Shown here in pieces: positions 10,644 to 31,784 of a DNA stretch of 52,918 bases (position 1 is the first letter of the stretch; every line of letters starts with the position of its first letter). The notes under the pieces are model-generated. The model saw only the letters and a list, made by a program, of their open reading frames with translations, had not been told where the DNA came from and made no database searches. This DNA comes from Chthoniobacterales bacterium (GTDB lineage Bacteria; Verrucomicrobiota; Verrucomicrobiia; Chthoniobacterales; UBA10450): the NCBI GenBank assembly GCA_025935755.1, contig JAICUQ010000005.1, positions 1 to 52,918 of the forward strand, written 5' to 3'. Made by a program: the position numbers and the translations under genes.

Positions 10644-10701
10644 ATTGGGTCGGCCGGGACTCGAACCCGGAACCAACCCCGAAAGCTTTCGGGGCTGCTC
10701 T
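10644..10701 (-). pseudogene. tRNA-Lys 3'-half fragment carrying a palindrome in place of the anticodon arm
   Basis: Bases 10644-10677 are identical (34 of 34) to 10953-10986, which is the T-arm and acceptor 3' strand of the intact tRNA-Lys. Upstream of it on the minus strand, the anticodon arm is replaced by an 18-nt perfect palindrome (CCCCGAAAGCTTTCGGGG). Before that only AGAGCAG of the D-arm remains. The fragment starts right at the GIY-YIG stop codon. It cannot fold into a full tRNA. Confidence 0.8.
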
Positions 10702-10947
10702 TTAGTTGGCAGACTTCAGGACGGAGAGTACAAGTCGCGGGTTCTTTTTACGTTTGAGACTCTGCTCGAGTTTGCGTGCTTCGATCATCGACGGGAGCTC
10801 CTTCGCCGCGACAAGTTCAATTTGGCCGCCAAATCGGCGTGTTGTGTGATTGCTGCCGCGCTGGTGTTCGGCGATTCGCCGTTGAAGGTCCTCGGTCGCG
10901 CCGATGTAATATCGGCGATCGCCACGCAAGACGTAGACCCAAGCCAT
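10702..10947 (-). CDS. Small GIY-YIG nuclease domain protein
   Basis: An 81-residue single-domain GIY-YIG protein, as in the UvrC N-terminus and many free-standing YhbQ-like proteins. The motif is split as WVYVLRGDRRYYIGAT (residues 3-18), followed by the Arg-rich helix LQRRIAEHQRG. Near the C-terminus come the helix Glu in EARKLEQSLKRKKNP and a basic tail. The ATG is only 7 bases past the 3' end of the intact tRNA-Lys, so it is probably cotranscribed with it. Its stop codon abuts a tRNA 3'-half fragment, so the gene lies between two copies of the tRNA 3' part. This layout suggests a tRNA-associated mobile cassette. Confidence 0.88.
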   Translation of the reverse strand: MAWVYVLRGDRRYYIGATEDLQRRIAEHQRGSNHTTRRFGGQIELVAAKELPSMIEARKLEQSLKRKKNPRLVLSVLKSAN

Positions 10948-10954
10948 AAACCAT

Positions 10955-11027
10955 TGGGTCGGCCGGGACTCGAACCCGGAACCAACGCCTTAAAAGGGCG
11001 CTGCTCTACCGATTGAGCTACCGACCC
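10955..11027 (-). tRNA. tRNA-Lys (anticodon TTT)
   Basis: The minus strand folds as a cloverleaf: acceptor GGGTCGG/CCGACCC, D-arm GCTC...GAGC, anticodon loop CTTTTAA between GCGCC and GGCGT, and T-arm CCGGG TTCGAGT CCCGG. The anticodon is TTT. The discriminator is A and CCA is not encoded. It is the only complete copy in a locus full of tRNA-Lys fragments. Confidence 0.96.
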
Positions 11028-11284
11028 TCGAAGTTTCAGTTTCCTGTAGCTAAAAAAATTTTCAATCCAGAACCAACCCCGAAAGCCTTCGGGGCTGCTC
11101 TACCGATTGAGCTACCGACCCTCGAAGTTGCAGTTTCCTGTAAGCTAAAAAAATTTTCAATCCAGAACCAACCCCGAAACCTTTCGGGGCTGCTCTACCG
11201 ATTGAGCTACCGACCCTTCGAAGTTTCAGTTTCCTGTAGCTAAAAAAATTTTTCAATCCAGAGCCAACCCTGAAACCTTTCGTT
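11028..11284 (-). repeat. Tandem ~94-bp repeats containing tRNA-Lys 5' halves
   Basis: Unit 1 (11028-11121, 94 bp) and unit 2 (11122-11216, 95 bp) are nearly identical, and a decayed partial unit 3 runs to about 11284. Each full unit holds, on the minus strand, the complete tRNA-Lys 5' half (acceptor strand, D-arm). Then come a CCCCGAAAG..TTCGGGG hairpin in place of the anticodon arm, GTTGGTTC, and an A/T-rich spacer ending in TTTTTTTAGC. No T-arm is present. The rest of the gap to 11456 shows nothing recognisable. Confidence 0.85.
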
Positions 11285-31365: not shown

Positions 31366-31371
31366 ATAGTT

Positions 31372-31784
31372 CGATGGCGATAAGCCGAATTCTGTCGGCC
31401 CAGCAGTTGCGGGCCTGATGATCATTCATCTCATCCGCCTCGCACGCGGGACGGATGCCCGTCCCGCACACGCGGGACGTGGTGCGACGATACCCGAGGA
31501 TTTAGCGGGCCGGCTGCCCTGCCTCTGTTTTGTCTTGCACCGCATGGGGTTTTTCGTGCCTCGCGAATTGCTCCGCGAGCGGTGAGCTCTTACCTCGCCA
31601 TTTCACCCTTGCCCGTACTTTTCTCAAAGAACCGGCGGTGTGTTTTCTGTGACACTTTCCGTCAACAACCGCTTTCGCAGATATTGCCCGCGTATTTTAC
31701 GCGGCATGCTGCCGTATGGTGTTCGGACTTTCCTCCAGCGAGTCCCGCCAGCGCGGGATCCACCGGCGATCATCTGCCATCGGC
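31372..31784 (-). ncRNA. rnpB: RNase P RNA (bacterial type A)
   Basis: Catalytic RNA of RNase P, about 413 nt on the minus strand. Conserved blocks in order are GAGGAAAGTCCGAACACC, ACAGAAAACACACCGCC, AGGGTGAAATGGCGAGGTAA with GAGCTCACCG, and ACAGAATTCGGCTTATCG near the 3' end. Helix P1 pairs CGATGGC with GCCATCG, which sets the ends at about 31784 and 31372. A variable helix contains an added REP-like palindrome (31446-31479). A terminator follows at 31327-31365. Confidence 0.95.
31446..31479 (-). repeat. Palindromic insert in a variable arm of RNase P RNA
   Basis: GCGGGACG occurs at 31446-31453 and 31472-31479 and its complement CGTCCCGC at 31460-31467, so the middle copy can pair with either neighbour. 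This extra GC-rich material lies between the conserved P-RNA blocks and is not part of the core. Confidence 0.55.

Follow-up and report, generated by a model that had tools for sequence, protein, structure and literature searches.

The window, that is, the whole stretch of 52,918 nucleotides analysed here, contains an intact tRNA-Lys(UUU) gene closely followed by a small GIY-YIG nuclease gene, with incomplete copies of the same tRNA on either side. Every feature of this locus is carried by the minus strand. Read along this strand, the locus begins with a decayed unit (11282-11217) and two 5'-half units (11216-11122 and 11121-11028), each composed of a tRNA-Lys 5' half, a hairpin and a spacer; the tRNA-Lys(UUU) (11027-10955) comes next and is followed downstream by the GIY-YIG ORF (10947-10702), an AGAGCAG remnant, a hairpin (10694-10677) and a tRNA 3' half (10677-10646). 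The individual features are:

11217-11282, minus: decayed third unit of spacer and hairpin remnant (11269-11282), without a recognisable 5' half
11189-11216, minus: upstream tRNA-Lys 5' half of unit 2 (intact, 28 nt)
11172-11189, minus: upstream hairpin of unit 2
11122-11171, minus: spacer of unit 2
11094-11121, minus: upstream tRNA-Lys 5' half of unit 1 (positions 1-28, intact, 28 nt)
11077-11094, minus: upstream hairpin of unit 1
11028-11076, minus: inner leader or spacer from the first upstream hairpin to the intact tRNA, which might carry a promoter (promoter test negative for the Lys type)
10955-11027, minus: intact tRNA-Lys(UUU), found by ARAGORN and Rfam (tRNA-Lys(TTT), 75.7 bits)
10702-10947, minus: GIY-YIG nuclease gene, 81 codons, 7 nt past the tRNA 3' end (ORF and Pfam)
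10695-10701, minus: AGAGCAG, tRNA 5'-half remnant of the downstream outer copy
10677-10694, minus: downstream hairpin CCCCGAAAGCTTTCGGGG, replacing the anticodon arm
10646-10677, minus: displaced outer copy of the tRNA-Lys 3' half (positions 42-73 of the tRNA), with the same sequence as in the intact tRNA

A sequence-only reading of this region had proposed an 81-codon GIY-YIG gene 7 nt after the tRNA-Lys 3' end, an exact 34-bp duplication of that end, and a palindrome in place of the anticodon arm in the fragments on both sides. The first is confirmed by ARAGORN, Rfam and Pfam (E 5e-13), and the second by the identity of 10644-10677 and 10953-10986 over 34 bp. The third holds for the recognisable outer copies, in which the hairpin CCCCGAAnnnnTTCGGGG (10677-10694, 11077-11094 and 11172-11189) substitutes for the anticodon arm. 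The tandem 5'-half units of the same reading comprise two full units, the supposed third being recognisable only as a hairpin remnant and spacer, with a tRNA 5'-half match at chance level (153 of 500 shuffles as good). The three outer copies fold more stably than their shuffles (z of -2.5, -3.6 and -4.1). The tRNA at 10955-11027 is the sole match to the exact tRNA-Lys(UUU) core in the genome of the window, a draft of 270 contigs that is 90% complete. Elsewhere in the window, a bacterial RNase P RNA of class A lies at 31368-31782 on the minus strand.

The window protein scores 49.6 bits against the Pfam GIY-YIG family (PF01541), above the curated cut-off of 22.6, and has the catalytic Tyr, Arg and Glu of the GIY-YIG superfamily. 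Across nine aligned proteins Y5, Y14, G16, R24, H28 and E61 are invariant, and we take Y5, Y14, R24 and E61 to be the catalytic Tyr, Arg and Glu positions. The nuclease genes are under coding constraint, with pS of 0.75-0.78 versus pN of 0.17-0.26, silent sites being saturated in most pairs. A phage or plasmid origin was considered and rejected, as phages and plasmids gave no match to the window protein at E 1e-5 and none of 93 pattern matches in a scan of viral contigs (alignment A2) was confirmed. The direct repeat of the tRNA 3' end around the nuclease gene recalls an attachment site, and the locus could be what is left of an integrase-type element that formerly used the tRNA 3' end in this way and was reduced to one gene. 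This origin appears highly improbable, however, in that the roughly 260-380 nt between tRNA and downstream half are occupied by the nuclease ORF and leave no room for an integrase, and neither the upstream 5' halves nor an insertion point in the anticodon arm fits insertion at a tRNA 3' end. Between the repeats of the window no integrase-sized ORF was found, and the locus does not classify as a tyrosine-integrase element.

The same anatomy recurs in many other genomes, largely draft MAGs, which rules out an assembly artefact of a single locus. A second locus in the genome of the window (contig C266) starts with an intact initiator tRNA-Met and a GIY-YIG gene and continues with GGCTCATAA, the hairpin TCCCGCGCCTGCGGGA, an exact tRNA 3' half and a second GIY-YIG gene. 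On contig C27 of this genome (G000, ~58-120, minus; L009), near the contig end, lies a tRNA-Gln-like remnant with CCCCGAAAGCTTTCGGGG replacing the anticodon arm; its acceptor 5' strand looks lost, and no nuclease was found alongside. In the genus and near relatives, a protein match at E <= 1e-3 was obtained in 30 of 58 genomes, that of the window included. The loci retrieved from this search comprise 45 distinct arrays, of which 29 start within 150 nt past a same-strand tRNA 3' end, one starts at 151-260 nt, and none lies near an opposite-strand tRNA; in 26 of the 45 the tRNA 3' half is clearly repeated downstream. The clear targets at this level are Lys, elongator Met, initiator Met and Asn. 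Upstream 5' halves are seen at Lys, elongator-Met and Asn loci, the nearest unit of 5' half and hairpin, where present, beginning ~85-115 nt ahead of the tRNA.

A profile search of the phylum gave matches at E <= 1e-8 in 160 of 387 genomes. Among the matches listed, 68 arrays were examined (29 of the best and 39 lower); a same-strand tRNA lies no more than 150 nt from the start in 34 and no more than 260 nt in another 7, and 2 arrays are near a tRNA of the opposite strand. A clear 3' half, usually behind a hairpin, follows in 24 arrays (24 of the 34 that are tRNA-linked), and a clear upstream half is present in 10 of the 68. Half of the sampled arrays have no same-strand tRNA within 150 nt, and some of these apparently tRNA-less homologs show repeated tRNA pieces on inspection (L149, L166 and L237, as well as L187 of the named set described below). 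In L237 the piece is tRNA-Phe-like and, by eye, an inverted-repeat insert splits the T loop of the downstream copy, not the anticodon arm, and the preceding tRNA has no recognisable 5' half. The targets in the phylum extend to Pro, Arg, Ala, Thr and Ser, with weaker copies for Cys and Gly. Cassettes with one order and spacing of parts thus recur at many tRNA species, a comparison that the sequence-only reading had suggested. Three GIY-YIG copies follow one tRNA at L159 (Arg), L211 (Ala) and L223 (Thr). In a separate scan of 32 named loci, with genomes partly repeated, 23 are tRNA-linked and 9 are not, 7 of the latter being from Actinomycetota. The other hosts are verrucomicrobial MAGs (Verrucomicrobia, Spartobacteria, Chthoniobacterales and one Akkermansia), with the exception of L193 (also L305; JAIOQI010000003.1), a contig labelled Alphaproteobacteria whose elongator-Met cassette stands beside the verrucomicrobial elongator-Met clade on the nuclease tree; a downstream half was looked for there and not found, and the case reflects either misbinning or transfer. 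Depths such as 30cm in the sample names point to soil, and the window would accordingly stem from a verrucomicrobium living in soil. Two homologs, L227 and L238, lie 300-500 nt past a tmRNA, which was rejected as a target as no tmRNA fragment was found downstream.

Homologs from two control phyla behave differently. Matches were obtained in 46 of 299 genomes of the phylum of G439 (Alphaproteobacteria) at E 1e-12 and in 10 of 198 genomes of that of G440 (Mumia, Actinomycetota). From these, 45 loci (L305-L349), fewer than the matches listed, were examined, and L305 was left out because it lies on the same contig as L193. Of the remaining 44 copies, one has a same-strand tRNA within 150 nt and a second tRNA half is seen in none, so the tRNA linkage is not general to the protein family. 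The tRNA-Ala genes found upstream of L320 (203 nt) and L324 (134 nt) in the phylum of G439 were dismissed as ordinary, with no second half or hairpin by eye.

In a tree of the nucleases (74 rows, 86 columns; 36 of 71 inner branches open), the larger GIY-YIG clades sort by the identity of the target tRNA, and this grouping spans distant families. The tRNA labels require 16 changes compared with a shuffled mean of 47.8, and none of 200 shuffles was as low. Initiator Met, Lys, elongator Met and Asn need 1-2 changes each and Ser needs 4, and Pro (5 changes) and Ala (3) are barely clustered, with 57 and 26 of 500 shuffles as low. The match of clade to tRNA points to the anticodon arm as the predicted cleavage target. 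From the target-wise clustering together with the patchy distribution described below, we infer horizontal transfer.

To compare occupied and empty sites, the tRNA genes of 35 genomes of the genus were gathered by their exact cores, by which diverged second copies would be missed. The Lys core occurs exactly once in each of 26 genomes and twice in none (9 without a match uncounted), the elongator-Met core exactly once in each of 28 (7 uncounted), and the initiator-Met core once in 27 and twice in G013 (7 uncounted). Scripted classing gave 5 occupied sites among 26 for Lys and 2 with the upstream half only (L133 and L142), to which L135 and L141 were added by eye. For elongator Met, 7 of 28 sites are occupied and 3 keep the upstream half only, among them L255, which retains a truncated nuclease; for initiator Met, 13 of 27 classified sites are occupied. 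The 250-bp flanks of the 23 occupied sites compared were aligned to those of the empty ones, the scars L135 and L141 being treated as empty. An empty partner matching on both sides with junction gaps of 0-7 nt was found for 5 of the 23, so the relatives do hold the empty sites that the sequence-only reading called for. The pair L285/L278 has zero gap on either side and near identity, L124 has no gap to L130 (right) and to L137 (left), and the gaps are within 2 nt for L277/L287, 4 nt for L132/L139 and 7 nt for L258/L268. At these sites the outer halves adjoin the same flanks as the uninterrupted tRNA of the empty relatives, the outer 3' half in particular adjoining the native flank, and the aligned junctions place the insertion inside the anticodon arm, in tRNA genes that are conserved. 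Among the other 18 sites, none has a partner within 7 nt on both sides. The site of the window is one of these, and as the search gave it no empty counterpart with matching flanks, its boundaries rest on analogy.

Presence and absence at an otherwise matching site, a signature of homing endonuclease genes, is thus seen for 5 of 23 occupied sites, and the states of a cycle of gain, decay and loss, namely empty, occupied, frameshifted (L016/L125) or truncated, and nuclease-free sites that look like scars, all exist within one genus, the direction of change among these states being presumed. In G013, a single MAG contains an occupied (C18, L285) and an empty (C85, L303) initiator-Met allele whose flanks are almost identical, as could result from an insertion that is still segregating or from a mixed bin. 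These site states also bear on whether the gene serves its host, with a GIY-YIG protein that processes or repairs the neighbouring tRNA and is co-transcribed with it, and with fragments that are by-products of tandem tRNA duplication. Such a role would suit the coding constraint, the shared strand and the close spacing, the gap from tRNA to nuclease being 5-25 nt in 56 of 89 cases. It is less easily reconciled with the patchy presence (5 of 26, 7 of 28 and 13 of 27 sites), the frameshifted copy, the different targets of the larger clades, and the broken outer halves lying flush with native flanks at matched sites, and we regard it as very unlikely.

The order at occupied Lys and elongator-Met sites is target 5' half, hairpin, leader, intact tRNA, GIY-YIG gene, hairpin and target 3' half. 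At those matched sites of both types that have an upstream half, this half adjoins native sequence and the intact copy is the inner tRNA, which places the tRNA inside the insertion. The cassette in these types therefore spans the region between the two target halves, intact tRNA included, instead of the 309 bp between two 3' ends that had been proposed from the sequence of the window. A full replacement tRNA is not universal, because the initiator-Met type never shows an upstream half (none in 13 occupied sites); in the simplest reading, this cassette would bring no more than a new 3' half, by which the native 5' half is completed. At one of 12 initiator-Met sites, L301, a paired change in the T stem distinguishes the inner 3' half from the outer one, as expected if one of them is foreign; at the remaining sites the two show either no difference or slight decay. 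The core of the inner tRNA-Lys is the same as that of its presumed target, and the intact inner tRNA argues against simple resistance of the occupied allele to the enzyme.

The stretch after the upstream hairpin was at first read as a decayed T arm, which was abandoned; by eye, the Lys loci resemble here the native region upstream of tRNA-Lys. The measured likeness of the Lys spacers is slight, at 0.56 with the native region of their own locus and 0.51 with those of other loci, against 0.48 after shuffling. Among themselves the inner spacers score 0.61 for Lys and 0.58 for Met versus 0.48 for shuffled sequences, and the native regions 0.55 (Lys) and 0.58 (Met). As the inner spacers are about as alike as the native regions, travel of the spacer with the cassette is not proven. 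A promoter-like TANNNT 15-18 nt after TTGGTN is present in 9 of 12 elongator-Met loci, which are related to one another, with 0.97 expected. The same pattern occurs in none of 12 Lys types (0.74 expected; a further Lys locus, L133, did not fit the pattern), and for this reason no general claim of a cassette promoter is made.

A perfect stem of at least 6 Watson-Crick pairs lies by the 3' half in 55 of 66 downstream copies, compared with about 2 of 66 in shuffles; the 66 count five loci twice whose nuclease is in two pieces, and the figure without double counts is 51 of 61. Within initiator Met the stems are TCCCGC/GCGGGA and TCCGGC/GCCGGA, and elsewhere TCCCGAC/GTCGGGA (Asn), CCCCGAA/TTCGGGG (Lys and elongator Met) and TTCCGGT/ACCGGAA (Thr), with a variable loop of mostly 3-4 nt. 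Because the stem sequences differ by paired changes, we think that the fold of the hairpin matters. The palindrome is not peculiar to the cassette: CCCCGAAnnnnTTCGGGG is a dispersed hairpin of the genus, a longer pattern of it matching 21 of 39 genomes and none of the 14 from other families of the order, with no match for a reversed control. A search for it beside tRNA halves, also suggested by the sequence-only reading, found such associations, 11 of 61 unique sites being tRNA-linked by a strict score and a few more by eye, and most sites lie elsewhere. The dispersed form GCCCCGAAnnnnTTCGGGGTT can occupy the loop of a longer inverted repeat, as if inserted at its tip (L079, L085, L090, L095, L074 and L100). 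A near match to this hairpin, AACCCCGAAAACTTTCGGGG, is found in the spacer directly past a 16S rRNA 3' end (L010 1056-1075; G000 C61:19055-19074).

This dispersal raises the possibility that a REP-like hairpin of the genus passively enters loops, those of tRNA arms included, with a secondary association to the nuclease. Besides the low share of tRNA-linked sites, 7 of the 50 other sites lie between short inverted flanks against 1.4 expected, and at L089 (G003 C80) the upstream elongator-Met half holds a second hairpin, CCCCGACgaatGTCGGGG, within its D loop. The initiator-Met, Asn, Thr and Pro cassettes, however, carry other hairpins at the corresponding place, and we give passive insertion very little credence. 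A different role for the hairpins would follow if the GIY-YIG protein were an anticodon-directed RNase toxin and the hairpin-bearing half tRNAs its decoys or antitoxins; the hairpin does sit where an anticodon nuclease would be expected to act, and the larger clades do match tRNA identity. GIY-YIG enzymes of this kind are, however, known as DNA nucleases, the upstream half is missing from many occupied sites, and part of the downstream halves are decayed, which makes such a system very unlikely.

We conclude that the locus is best explained by a cassette family that breaks an apparently single-copy tRNA gene and supplies its replacement, and that a small DNA-cutting enzyme encoded in the cassette probably spreads it. 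On these comparisons, the element is probably a mobile cassette of the homing type, with the anticodon arm of a tRNA gene as its point of entry. The GIY-YIG enzyme would cut the uninvaded tRNA gene near the anticodon, and the break would be repaired from an occupied copy, with the tRNA halves serving as homology arms. The cell would survive since the cassette delivers a working tRNA copy and, because the target looks single-copy, would then depend on it. If the two 3' halves, which are identical, recombined, the nuclease alone would be lost, leaving a scar of 5' half and hairpin before a working tRNA, and L133 and L142 match this prediction; loss of everything between the border hairpins would deprive the cell of a working tRNA. 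The stacked 5' halves of the window may have arisen by repeated invasion and loss or by tandem duplication. In the arrays examined, the counts of upstream units, nucleases and downstream halves disagree, and simple nested insertion is therefore not the whole story. The proposal of a minimal tRNA-targeting homing cassette without integrase thus remains the best reading, backed by the empty sites and the other tRNAs, and was revised in its extent and in the specificity of its hairpin. Its alternative, a repeat family of tRNA origin that the nuclease maintains, is superfluous; remnants of invasion are the better reading of the upstream repeats. For the wider picture the chances seem about even: a phylum-wide selfish family that repeatedly replaces essential single-copy tRNA genes, in which each enzyme lineage breaks one tRNA species and installs an expressed copy, with dependence of the host on that copy, turnover of the tRNA genes by homing, and hairpins, constant in shape but changing in sequence, that silence or insulate the broken halves.

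Homing elements in essential genes usually survive by splicing out as introns or inteins. The cassettes would be evidence for another route on bacterial chromosomes, in which an essential RNA gene is broken and a spare is supplied. They would also assign a role to a large number of very small GIY-YIG genes that are little understood, explain tRNA fragments adjoining tRNA genes, and provide a set of enzymes with tRNA-gene specificities that can be guessed from position. The closest solved sequences to the nuclease family are PDB 1zg2 (E 1e-13) and 1ywl (E 6e-9) of UPF0213, which differ in being deposited as hypothetical proteins, with the homologs examined in two other phyla lacking the tRNA architecture. 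Group I introns of tRNA genes share the insertion region and an endonuclease aimed there, but in the cassette the broken tRNA is replaced, not spliced; the window gave no Rfam hit to a group I intron at the gathering threshold and is not assigned to that class. Free-standing GIY-YIG genes adjoining tRNA genes, as in the cassette, are known from T-even phages, where SegB and enzymes of its type have been linked to DNA breaks in tRNA-containing regions and to recombination in them (PMC13096335). In contrast to the cassette these are phage genes, and the portion of that account considered here mentions neither a split target tRNA nor a hairpin. Among the literature matches listed (open-licence PMC articles, by title and start of abstract), tRNA-replacing bacterial GIY-YIG cassettes are undescribed. 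The closest precedent in logic, as far as the part of the source considered goes, is given by the mobile ORFs of fungal mitochondria (Allomyces atp6; Glomus atp6, atp9, cox2 and nad3), in which an endonuclease ORF, encoding a LAGLIDADG enzyme in three of the four Glomus cases, inserts inside a gene and brings a replacement C-terminus, the native gene end being displaced downstream (PMC3630166). An endonuclease ORF within a gene, a replacement end and a displaced native end downstream are common to both systems. The fungal elements concern protein genes in mitochondria, with border hairpins unmentioned in that part of the account, whereas the cassettes described here occupy tRNA genes on bacterial chromosomes, encode GIY-YIG enzymes, are bordered by hairpins and, in some types, bring a whole replacement gene. 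On this comparison the cassettes would belong with the homing elements that replace a gene end, here for tRNA genes on bacterial chromosomes.
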